This document shows, piece by piece, positions 1-4,028 of a DNA stretch of 32,598 nt. The translations under genes were made by a program, and so were the position numbers. Each line of letters opens with the position of its first letter. Position 1 is the first letter of the stretch. This DNA is from Lutibacter sp. (lineage in GTDB: Bacteria; Bacteroidota; Bacteroidia; Flavobacteriales; Flavobacteriaceae): NCBI GenBank assembly GCA_015662775.1, contig DQTL01000282.1, forward strand, positions 1 to 32,598. The letters are read 5' to 3'. Under the pieces are notes generated by a model. That model saw nothing but the letters and a program-made list of their open reading frames with translations, was not told where the DNA came from and made no database searches.

Positions 1-2035
1 CATAGTCTGAGCCATCCTTACTATTAGTCCATTCCCAAATATTACCAGCCATATCTGCCACAGTTTCGTGAGTTTCCCCGTTTTTAAAGATACCTACTAC
101 ACTCGTTCTTTCTAAACCTAATGCGACATTATTACACTTCATATTATCCCATTTATCACCCCATGGGTATTTTTTTTGTTCTTTACCGCTTGCTGCCGCT
201 TGCCATTGTATTTCAGTAGGTAAAAAATAATTTTCTCCTGTTTTGTTACTCAGCCATTGACAAAAAGCTTCAGCTTCATGCCAAGATACACCTACTACGG
301 GTTGGTAGTCTTGGTTAAACTTAGCATTATTCCAATACTTAGGTTCTTTTGTTTTTAATTCTTTAAGAAACGTCTTGTTCTTCCAATACTTCTCCTTTTT
401 ATAACCTCCATCTTCTATAAACTCTTTATACCATACATTAGTTACAGGATACTTAGCTAAATAAAAAGCTTCTTTTATCTCTTCTTTACCAAGATCTTCT
501 AAATTGTATGTACCTGCATCTATTTTTATAAATTCCTTATAATCAATACGTTGATTTTTAGCTTCCTTTTCTCTCTTGTATAAATCTTCTTTAAATTCTT
601 CAATATTATCAAATTTATCTTCTTTGAAAGTTGTAGTATATGAAATTAAGGTCTTTATTTCTTCTCCTGTTAAGGCTAAAGAACTAATTAAGTTTTGTAT
701 TTTTTCATCTTTATAATAAACTAAATGCTTCTCTACTTTTGGTTTATTTTTCAGCTGTTCCAGTTGTTCCTCAGAAGAACTTTTACGCAACTCTTCAATA
801 TAATCTTTTGCAATGAAATAACTCTTTTCATCATCGACCAAATCATTGAAAAAAACACTATTGTATATCTCTAATGTACGCCATAATATCATTTTCTCAA
901 AAGTTACTTGATTTGCATTATCTCCATGCCTTAATATTGCTACTTGTAATTTAATATGATTAAATAATGATATAATACGCCTTGGGTTGAAATCTAATAT
1001 GGGTAAGATAATTTCAATGGCAATGTCTAACAGACTCTTATTTTCAGTTGCAATACCTAATTGTTCTTTAATTTCTTGTAAAAATGACTCAGAATTTTCG
1101 TGTGTCTTTTTAGGCAATGAAAAATCAATTTGTATTATTTTTTCAAGAAATTTTTCGGCATCTACATTGTTGTAATCCTTGTTGTTTTCGAGTGCACTTT
1201 GTATAATGTTTTTGGCAGCTCCTAGTACAAAAACACAGCCTTCTTTATCTAAAAATACTTTTATGGTTTCGAGTACTTGTATAATTTTGGGTAATGGGCA
1301 ACGGTCTAGGTCGTCAATAAAAATGACCAAGCTGGCTTTTTGGTCTGGATTTTTTATTTTTTTTAAAGCATCTTTGCTTTCTGTCACACCTAACACCTCT
1401 AAGTATTTCCACAATAATTCATCAAAGTGCTCAGTAAAAATATCGTAAAAACTAAGATAATCCTTATATTTATTTTCTGGTGCGTCTTTTTCTTCTTTAA
1501 ATTGTAAAATTTTATCTGGATCAACAGGAATGGTAAGCTTAAACACTCCCTTTGCTACTTCCTTTATTGTATTAAAATAATCAAAACGTTTAAAATAACC
1601 TATTAGTTTTTTCACACCTTCCTTTTCAATAAAAGTGTCGTTTTCCTCCATTTTTTTTATAATCACATTGATTAAAGCAGCTAAAATTTGCTCTTCATCT
1701 TTGTATTTCCAAGCGTTAAACCATACCGTTTTTATTCTTCTAAACTGGTCTGTAATCTCAGGCGATGGCTTCTTACTTACCTCGTTAGTATTTTCTTTTT
1801 CATCTTCTTTATTCAATTCTTTAAACTTTCCTTCTATCTCACGCATCAAAGTTGTCTTACCAGATCCCCACTTGCCCGATATGCCTATGGTAAACGGTGT
1901 TTTGTTGTCTTTTGTAGCAATCATCTCTGCCAAAGCATTTGCGTAAGCATCAAAACCAAAGGATACATTGCCGTCTTTTTTAACAGCATCACTAACAATA
2001 CGTAAGGGTTCGTAAATAGTTGTTTTTTTTGCCAT
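1..2035 (-). CDS. KAP-family P-loop NTPase fused to an FGE/SUMF1-like domain (3' end outside window)
   Basis: 678 codons are visible and the frame runs off the left edge. The N-terminal half is a KAP NTPase: Walker A GISGKWGSGKTT with Lys60, then the family signature WFNAWKYKDEEQILAALI, Walker B FIDDLDRC (about residues 239-246), FLEKIIQIDFSLP and NPRRIISLF. No membrane helix is visible between Walker A and B, although many KAP proteins have one, so it is probably cytoplasmic. From about residue 500 an FGE-sulfatase/C-type-lectin-fold domain follows, with PVTNVWYKEF, PVVGVSWHEAEAFCQWL, FLPTEIQWQAAASG, YPWGDKW and DMAGNIWEW. The segment that carries the catalytic cysteines of true FGE lies off the window, so enzyme activity cannot be judged. 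The Asp common after the KAP beta-strand following Walker B appears to be Ala (VFVLGAAKN). KAP NTPases include the phage-exclusion protein PifA, so a conflict or defence role is plausible but inferred. The gene has its own promoter and starts 136 nt after parE ends. Confidence 0.85.
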   Translation of the reverse strand, partial: MAKKTTIYEPLRIVSDAVKKDGNVSFGFDAYANALAEMIATKDNKTPFTIGISGKWGSGKTTLMREIEGKFKELNKEDEKENTNEVSKKPSPEITDQFRRIKTVWFNAWKYKDEEQILAALINVIIKKMEENDTFIEKEGVKKLIGYFKRFDYFNTIKEVAKGVFKLTIPVDPDKILQFKEEKDAPENKYKDYLSFYDIFTEHFDELLWKYLEVLGVTESKDALKKIKNPDQKASLVIFIDDLDRCPLPKIIQVLETIKVFLDKEGCVFVLGAAKNIIQSALENNKDYNNVDAEKFLEKIIQIDFSLPKKTHENSESFLQEIKEQLGIATENKSLLDIAIEIILPILDFNPRRIISLFNHIKLQVAILRHGDNANQVTFEKMILWRTLEIYNSVFFNDLVDDEKSYFIAKDYIEELRKSSSEEQLEQLKNKPKVEKHLVYYKDEKIQNLISSLALTGEEIKTLISYTTTFKEDKFDNIEEFKEDLYKREKEAKNQRIDYKEFIKIDAGTYNLEDLGKEEIKEAFYLAKYPVTNVWYKEFIEDGGYKKEKYWKNKTFLKELKTKEPKYWNNAKFNQDYQPVVGVSWHEAEAFCQWLSNKTGENYFLPTEIQWQAAASGKEQKKYPWGDKWDNMKCNNVALGLERTSVVGIFKNGETHETVADMAGNIWEWTNSKDGSDY

Positions 2036-2148: not shown

Positions 2149-2173
2149 CTCTATTCTCTCTACTCTATTCTCT
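2149..2173. repeat. Pyrimidine-rich direct repeat at the 3' end of parE
   Basis: CTCTATTCTCT occurs at 2149-2159 and again at 2163-2173, inside a longer CT-rich tract from about 2131. The second copy overlaps the parE stop codon (2172-2174). It resembles low-complexity intergenic repeats of flavobacteria. No function is known. Confidence 0.6.
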
Positions 2174-4028
2174 AATCCTCATCTATCAAATCAACTTCCA
2201 CTTTCAAATTTTCAATAATAAATTCTTGACGTTCTGCTGTGTTTTTTCCCATGTAAAACTCAAGCATATCGGCTATACTAACGGTCTTATCTAACATCAC
2301 AGGGTCTAATCGTATATCGTCTCCGATAAAATATTTAAACTCGTTGGGTGATATTTCTCCTAAACCTTTAAATCGGGTTATTTCTGGTTTTCCTTTTAGT
2401 TTTTTAATGGCATCTTTCTTTTCTGTTTCAGAATAACAATAAAAAGTTTGTCTTTTATCTCGCGCTCTAAATAGAGGTGTTTCTAAAATATAAAGGTGTC
2501 CTTCTTTGATCAATTCAGGGAAAAACTGCAAGAAAAAAGTAATCAATAATAGTCTAATATGCATTCCATCTACATCGGCATCTGTTGCAATTACAATATT
2601 GTTATAGCGTAAGTTTTCGATACCATCCTCAATATTTAAAGCTGCTTGAAGCAGATTAAACTCCTCATTTTCATAGACTATCTTCTTAGTCTTTCCATAG
2701 GAATTAAGTGGTTTTCCACGTAAACTAAAAACTGCCTGCGTTTTAACATCTCTCGATTTTGTAATTGATCCACTTGCCGAATCTCCTTCTGTTATAAATA
2801 AGGTGCTGTCTAATCTTGCTTCCTTCTTCATATCGCCCAAATGAACACGACAATCTCTTAATTTTTTATTGTGAAGACTTACCTTTTTGGCTCTTTCTCT
2901 AGCCAATTTCCGAATTCCTGAAAGATCTTTTCTTTCTTTTTCGGCTTGAACTATTTTATGAAGAATACTATTTGCTACATCTGGATTTCTATGCAGATAA
3001 TTATCTAGCTTTGTCCGTATAAAATCATTGATAAATACATTGACACTTGGCAAATCGCCACCCATTTCTGTAGAACCCAGTTTGGTCTTCGTCTGGCTTT
3101 CAAATACAGGTTCCATAACCTTAATACTGATTGCCGAAACAATAGATTTACGAATATCAGAAGCATCATAGTTCTTGCCAAAGAAATCTCTAATCGTTTT
3201 GACAATTGCTGCTCTAAAAGCTGTTTGATGAGTTCCTCCTTGTGTAGTATTTTGTCCATTTACAAACGAATGATACGACTCACTGTATTGCATTTTACTG
3301 TGCGTCATGGCTACTTCTATATCTTCATCCATAATATGAATGATTGGATATTGCATAGCATCTTCCGTTATTTCTTCAGACAATAAATCTTTTAATCCAT
3401 TTTCTGAAGTGAATTTCTCTCCATTAAAAACGATGGTTAATCCCTTATTGAGATACACATAGTTTCTAATCATTTTCTCTATATATTCATTTCTGAATTT
3501 ATATTTCTTAAAAATACCTGTATCGGGAATAAACGTAACTTTTGTCCCTTTTCTAGAAGAAGATGCTGTTGGTGCTTCATCTGAGATCAGTTCCCCAATT
3601 TCAAATTCGGCTATTTTGGTTTGATTGTCTCGTATGGATTGTACTTTAAAATAAGAGGATAAGGCGTTTACTGCTTTTGTTCCTACTCCATTAAGTCCAA
3701 CTGATTTTTTAAAGGCTTTTGAATCGTATTTTCCACCCGTGTTCATTTTAGAAACCACATCAACTACTTTTCCTAATGGAATTCCACGACCATAATCTCT
3801 GATAGTAACCGTGTTTTCTTTAACGACAATATCAATGGTTTTTCCTGCTCCCATCACAAATTCATCGACAGAATTATCTAAAACTTCTTTGATGAGAATA
3901 TAAATACCATCATCAGGTGATGATCCATCGCCTAACTTTCCGATATACATTCCAGGACGCATCCTAATGTGTTCTTTCCAATCTAGGGATCGAATATTAT
4001 CTTCGGTATATTGTGTGGTTTTTGCCAT
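2172..4028 (-). CDS. parE: DNA topoisomerase IV subunit B
   Basis: This 618-residue type IIA topoisomerase subunit supplies the ATPase of topoisomerase IV, which decatenates daughter chromosomes together with ParC. The GHKL ATPase domain shows [10 protein letters not shown] (48-57, with the catalytic Glu and the Mg-binding Asn), DYGRGIP (78-84) and the [14 protein letters not shown] lid (about 114-124). The TOPRIM domain has EGDSASG (414-420) and DADVDG (483-488). The length and the [16 protein letters not shown] stretch fit Bacteroidota ParE rather than GyrB. parC is commonly the next gene, but here the next gene is the KAP-FGE fusion. parC could lie beyond the left edge. Confidence 0.95.

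Follow-up and report, generated by a model that had tools for sequence, protein, structure and literature searches.

Introduction

Among described systems, the nearest to the gene reported here are the targets of clade-5D DGRs, which join CLec domains with STAND NTPases and some of which employ a KAP NTPase (PMC10907252), and the FGS-centred counter-invader systems, in some of which KAP may displace the STAND NTPase (PMC8195603). In the parts of these two papers considered here, the idea that KAP stands where STAND NTPases stand takes up one clause each, and a term match for 'KAP' finds nothing in the main text of two others (PMC10053308, PMC8144416). Since published work already places KAP in DGR/FGE conflict systems, the kind of protein is a known one; what is new is the member encoded in the window, together with template/variable pairs from nine relatives, two of these pairs being in trans, that put numbers on KAP in STAND's place. 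The putative antigen sensors of the STAND-CLec type, as presented in those parts of PMC10907252, share with the window's family an NTPase and a C-terminal CLec/FGE domain with a variable region. The clade-5D systems described there commonly use nSTAND1 or NACHT and have two targets per DGR, whereas the KAP-FGE cassettes examined here have single targets and some of their templates lie away from the RT; the tip of the window's own gene is unseen. The FGS-centred systems with EADs, in the corresponding parts of PMC8195603, likewise use the FGS domain as a recognition module, but no adaptor domain is found among the Pfam matches of the window protein.

PifA and QatA also have a KAP NTPase, and the window protein matches the PDC-S20, PifA and QatA models of PADLOC and NCBIfam; however, its FGE part lies outside the matched stretches, and on the side that can be seen it is flanked by genes that read as core genes. 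The PifA match (PADLOC, E 2.7e-23) falls in two stretches, the best on profile positions 10–70 of 720, and identity with QatA was rejected at 97 of 600 bits, below the equivalog cut-off (NCBIfam). RdrA of RADAR forms rings, according to the titles of its structure entries, and its likeness to KAP-FGE is structural, drawn from a predicted model. TvpA of Treponema denticola (2y3c), a DGR variable protein, shares the FGE-type fold, matching the KAP-FGE fusion of genome G347 by sequence (E 5e-19) and the model of the fusion at locus L150 by structure (E 5e-15); unlike the fusions, its chain of 294 residues has no NTPase.

Results

A KAP NTPase and an FGE-fold domain in one reading frame

The window, by which we mean the whole stretch of DNA analysed, is the entire contig C45 (32,598 bases) of a flavobacterial genome (G000) assembled in 340 contigs. 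The gene at its edge starts with ATG and runs as a single open frame from position 2035 to position 2 with no stop codon up to the contig edge, where its 3′ end is lost (Table 1). A first-pass annotation, made from the sequence, had proposed that KAP and FGE domains are fused in a single protein, and this is borne out by one ORF in which both Pfam domains score above cut-off: 147 bits against 20 for KAP_NTPase, and 108 bits against 23.3 for FGE-sulfatase over profile positions 33–193 of 255. The Walker A and B, FNAW and LEKIIQ motifs that it had listed are all present; when the protein is aligned to 28 other fusions, the key residues of the four motifs prove invariant or 90% conserved. The protein also appears to be soluble, as had been suggested, because a simple Kyte-Doolittle scan found no hydrophobic stretch of membrane-helix grade, and a soluble cytoplasmic protein is the best reading.

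Table 1. Features of the KAP-FGE fusion gene and its surroundings in the window
Feature	Position	Strand	Details and basis
KAP NTPase-FGE fusion gene	2..2035	(-)	678 aa; ORF list, Pfam
KAP_NTPase domain, residues 28-363	947..1954	(-)	Pfam PF07693, E 8.1e-43
Walker A GKWGSGKT, residues 54-61	1853..1876	(-)	sequence; conserved in fusion alignment
KAP motif WFNAWKY, residues 105-111	1703..1723	(-)	sequence; conserved in fusion alignment
Walker B LVIFIDD, residues 236-242	1310..1330	(-)	sequence; DD invariant in fusion alignment
KAP motif LEKIIQ, residues 297-302	1130..1147	(-)	sequence; K and Q invariant in fusion alignment
KAP-to-FGE spacer, residues 364-500, mostly helical	536..946	(-)	predicted model
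Incomplete FGE/SUMF1 (C-type-lectin fold) domain, residues 519-674	14..481	(-)	Pfam PF03781, E 6.4e-31
Contig edge, 8 residues past conserved WEWT	1..13	(-)	sequence
parE, upstream neighbour of fusion gene	2172..4028	(-)	ORF list

The closest full-length relative, from Desulfococcaceae (L164), aligns with the window protein across both domains (34% identity over 674 columns, E 6e-113; blastp, three-sequence set), which rules out an accident of frame or assembly as the source of the fusion. A STAND NTPase of the NACHT/NB-ARC kind was rejected: NB-ARC alone came up, at 19.7 bits against a cut-off of 23.5 (Pfam). No effector domain is fused to the protein, and neither such a domain nor a partner gene was seen in the window. 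Two further, weak KAP matches lie elsewhere in the genome (C63:14633-15157 and C294:5335-5835). The contig edge cuts the gene shortly ahead of the segment in which FGE enzymes have their active-site cysteines, a segment that is the DGR variable region of several relatives.

The gene lies where congeners have parC

The fusion gene starts 136 nt past the end of parE. In six of six congeners (L081-L086, read from their ORFs) the ORF after parE is parC, so that the fusion gene, which takes its place in the window, is an accessory insertion at the parE/parC junction. Its GC and GC3 are near those of parE and the other neighbours and give no indication of a recent transfer. These neighbours, among them a ribosomal protein operon and a SusC/TonB-receptor-like protein, read as core genes and point to a flavobacterium. 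A topoisomerase-A search of the genome returned one match, GyrA-like and 30% identical to a congener's ParC, and did not find parC; the stretch past the contig edge, parC included, is probably missing from the assembly, and a cassette just past the edge would therefore escape detection. The sequence at the contig edge is not repeated elsewhere in the genome, where the best other match has E 0.06.

KAP-FGE fusions in other genomes

Recurrence of the same fusion in other genomes had been put forward as a check on the first reading, and it does recur. A scan of species genomes with an alignment of KAP and linker confirmed 378 stretches, and among the best 80, which were kept, 35 have KAP and FGE in one ORF (frames of 571-897 aa), with Chloroflexota providing 25 of these 35. 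Two loci counted among the 35 (L116, L172) have the KAP N-terminus in a different frame, and L105 appears to be a repeat of G312. At L108, L128, L155 and L168 the FGE part lies in the subsequent ORF, an arrangement that could follow a frameshift or represent separate genes, and at L148, L153 and L177 the contig ends fall inside the putative start of FGE. A phylum-wide search matched 79 of 395 genomes at E ≤ 1e-12, and the two loci examined among these (G312, G347) are both KAP-FGE fusions; among the matches listed from a search of 99 genomes, the window's own alone spans both domains. Single-protein query scans of genome and viral contigs gave no match. An origin from phage or plasmid was rejected: FGE is found at none of 12 viral KAP loci, and among plasmid and phage records none matches the window protein over 80% of its length. 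The same holds for the G347 protein among plasmid records.

In a quick tree built from 71 KAP domains, the window protein sits on a long branch and clusters, with support 99, with three loci that are all KAP-FGE (L155, L164 and L148). The FGE label has to change five times on this tree, with at least four of the changes forced by well-supported branches; five rows cut ahead of any visible tail and ten far viral loci were excluded from this count. KAP proteins without FGE carry TPR or pentapeptide tails or a caspase or TIR domain in six of seven cases scanned.

DGR variable regions at the tips of relatives

The final ~40 codons are a DGR variable region in nine fusions. Pooled over the nine template/variable pairs, 147 of 174 mismatches fall at template A, a share somewhat favoured by the pair script, which chose for each gene the repeat with the highest A share; the bias is weakest at L109 (15/27) and G347 (14/24). 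A repeat of the ORF end within the same locus was found for seven of the 35 fusions, adenine-biased in five (L109, L116, L122, L135, L150) and without A bias in two (L111, L113), while three of 57 KAP-only ORFs have short repeats, none showing the A pattern. The template peptides resemble RGGSFNNN..., with asparagine at the variable places.

Several cassettes are dispersed over contigs. At the G347 fusion (L074, on C34) the final 154 nt of the gene are repeated 580 nt off, past a bAvd gene, and no RT adjoins this KAP-FGE/Avd/template locus (L074 3256-3828). The only RT match in that genome lies on a different contig, C39 (L078 2835-10932), with Avd, a DUF4062-nSTAND1-FGE gene and two TIR-FGE genes, and this DGR-type locus may serve the first in trans. 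Comparison with a single RT locus in each genome turned up two further templates in trans among 21 tests, for L106 (17/17 mismatches at template A) and L131 (15/15), each RT-adjacent on another contig. A whole cassette is present within the window protein's own clade: in genome G521 the L148 contig, which holds the KAP part, has an overlap of exactly 61 nt with one end of the L216 contig, where the FGE end lies together with bAvd, RT and template, and 21 of 22 mismatches of this pair fall at A (p 4.9e-10).

Two pairs of fusions were compared. Between L150 and L151, identity is 87% over the body and 54% over a 24-residue variable stretch; L156 and L157, from a different clade, are 71% identical in body and variable stretch alike. 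The L133 contig, one clean case, terminates with 27 nt identical to a template start; a pile-up of contig ends at the variable region was rejected as a specific signal because contig ends are frequent on both sides of these genes.

Of the 33 genomes in which the fusion is a single ORF, 18 have an RT of the L150 type (E ≤ 1e-40), three more have weaker matches and 12 have none at E ≤ 1e-8. The corresponding counts are three of seven genomes with split or cut fusions and two of eight KAP-only controls, and with so few controls we claim no association between RT and fusion. No RT match was obtained in the five genomes of the Latescibacterota/Gemmatimonadota clade or in the genome of L164, and some fusion lineages look undiversified, by this sequence search and by the equal identities of L156 and L157. 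At another locus (L225, the surroundings of L154 in G511) a KAP-FGE gene lies near a short DGR-like RT remnant, perhaps a decayed cassette.

The FGE-fold domain and the predicted structure

The catalytic cysteine pair of human SUMF1, which we take to be positions 336 and 341, was sought by alignment in the fusions. The two cysteines occur together in none of the 31 fusions, out of 35, that could be evaluated, with a lone cysteine at the first position in two and at the second in one. On this ground a catalytic FGE was rejected for the family, and the same result supports, at the level of sequence, the view that the FGE-fold domain is a non-catalytic binding module. It likewise supports the earlier suggestion that the domain binds a ligand rather than acting as an enzyme. 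The suggested layout of an NTPase with a recognition module is supported as well. The sequence matches of the FGE domain are to ToxD, EgtB and OvsA, and no equivalog cut-off is reached by the window protein (EgtB 82/360 bits; NCBIfam).

The predicted model of the window protein, a check that the first reading had named, has a mean pLDDT of 75.7 and a pTM of 0.56. Its KAP part (residues 11-457) best matches RdrA (Z 17.3, rmsd 5.2, 342 residues aligned, 14% identity), with other AAA+ proteins, ORC/Cdc6 and TnsC, next at Z 14-16. For the FGE part, EgtB and ToxD score close to Z 17, within an EgtB/ToxD/OvsA range of Z 15-17.

Genes beside the fusions

Neighbouring genes were compared by a PADLOC scan of 117 near and 117 far ORFs at E ≤ 1e-10. 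Among the families listed, near ORFs match models such as PDC-S01, PDC-S70 and PDC-S09 (two members each) and SoFic, AbiEii, QatD and mad3 (one each), and far ORFs match mad3 (5), mad8 (3), AriA (3), mad2 (2) and E1-E2, RmrA and ThsA (one each). Defence models are not clearly more frequent near the fusion gene, and no excess can be claimed since distinct members are not given and the list covers 25 of 44 near families. RT, Avd and KAP fragments were kept out of the near set, as were ORFs longer than 750 aa, so that some large STAND-like neighbours were dropped.

Pfam was also run on twenty hand-picked proteins, mostly neighbours of fusions. Those of immune type include an AAA_16-SIR2-pentapeptide protein (L112), an AAA_16-TPR protein (L134), a DUF4062-NACHT protein (L216) and a nucleotidyltransferase/HEPN gene (L116); others are a histidine kinase, a glycosyltransferase, a cytochrome, TatD and TsaD. 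At L107 (5846-16845) the KAP-FGE gene is flanked by a tubulin-like zinc-ribbon protein and by a SIR2-like and nSTAND1-WD40 pair.

Discussion

With a probability of roughly two in three, we read the window gene as encoding a soluble, cytoplasmic sensor of immune (conflict-system) type driven by a KAP NTPase, an accessory insertion belonging to a family whose tip is targeted by DGRs in several lineages. In the mechanism we propose, the C-terminal FGE-fold (C-type-lectin) domain would bind a ligand, and the KAP P-loop NTPase with the helical region would act as an ATP-dependent switch. Ligand binding would probably lead to assembly into a ring or oligomer, and the signal would be handed to an effector in trans. 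In several lineages of the family the tip of the binding domain, its last ~40 codons, is a target of DGRs, which alter codons at template adenines. Sensing, oligomerisation, an effector in trans and an anti-phage role are all inferred, and the formation of a ring in the manner of RdrA is suggested by analogy.

The first-pass annotation had deduced a conflict-system role from the domain layout, and this deduction is strengthened by the accessory position, the PADLOC and NCBIfam models, the likeness to RdrA and the domains of the KAP-only relatives. That relatives are DGR targets goes further than it had guessed. The neighbourhood, which it had named as a check, gave no such support: the window's neighbours read as core genes, those of relatives are mixed, and PADLOC gives no clear excess. 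The same observations, with several relatives sitting among metabolic or signalling genes, would suit a KAP protein of housekeeping or regulatory function that plays no role in conflict. We consider this unlikely, however, given that the gene is missing from the same place in all six congeners, that its distribution is scattered across distant phyla and that relatives are targeted by DGRs. Less probable still is a catalytic enzyme, FGE- or EgtB-like, held under ATPase control and acting on a substrate protein or small molecule. The matches to ToxD, EgtB and OvsA by sequence and structure would fit such an enzyme, and the catalytic segment of the window copy lies beyond the contig edge, but the cysteine pair is missing from every evaluable fusion, nine fusions have their variable stretch where the catalytic segment would be, and the score for EgtB does not reach its equivalog cut-off.

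If the sensor reading is taken for the window gene, the state of its own tip is a further matter. The variable/template repeat of the sister gene at L216 starts 11 residues past WEWT, and the window contig ends at eight; the RGGS motif follows WEWT by five residues in L164, 11-14 in nine fusions and 26-32 in twenty. The distance from contig edge to variable region would be ~3 codons by the spacing of the sister gene and up to ~22 by the longer spacings, and diversification of the window copy cannot be seen because the contig stops this far short. We put it at about even odds that the gene is an undiversified KAP-FGE sensor with a tip fixed in its lineage, either never a DGR target or one that has lost its retroelement; this is a version of the sensor reading and compatible with it. 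Such a state agrees with the finding of no RT in the genome, either by Pfam profile or by a DGR RT query (the latter run without a positive control), with the 12 of 33 fusion genomes, that of L164 included, that lack an RT match at E ≤ 1e-8, and with the short RT remnant that adjoins L154. Against it, the sister gene in G521 has a full cassette, and with parC not found in the genome the adjacent stretch is probably missing, so that a cassette there could go unseen. More tentatively, the window gene may itself be a DGR target, with Avd, RT and template in the missing stretch up to parC and with the variable/template copies, or many alleles, having broken the assembly. A search of the genome for the template peptide, run without a positive control, found none. 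If this were true, a flavobacterial genome would hold a KAP-driven intracellular immune receptor that the host cell can rewrite for itself.

Receptor tips varied by a retroelement in bacteria would amount to anticipatory immunity. KAP-FGE proteins are putative single-gene sensors, accompanied in some genomes by a compact cassette of RT, Avd and template, and whether DGRs diversify antiphage sensors could therefore be tested here in a simple unit. In one family of genomes (f32), many members have several frames of ~1000 aa with an FGE part that is 40-50% identical to that of the window protein.
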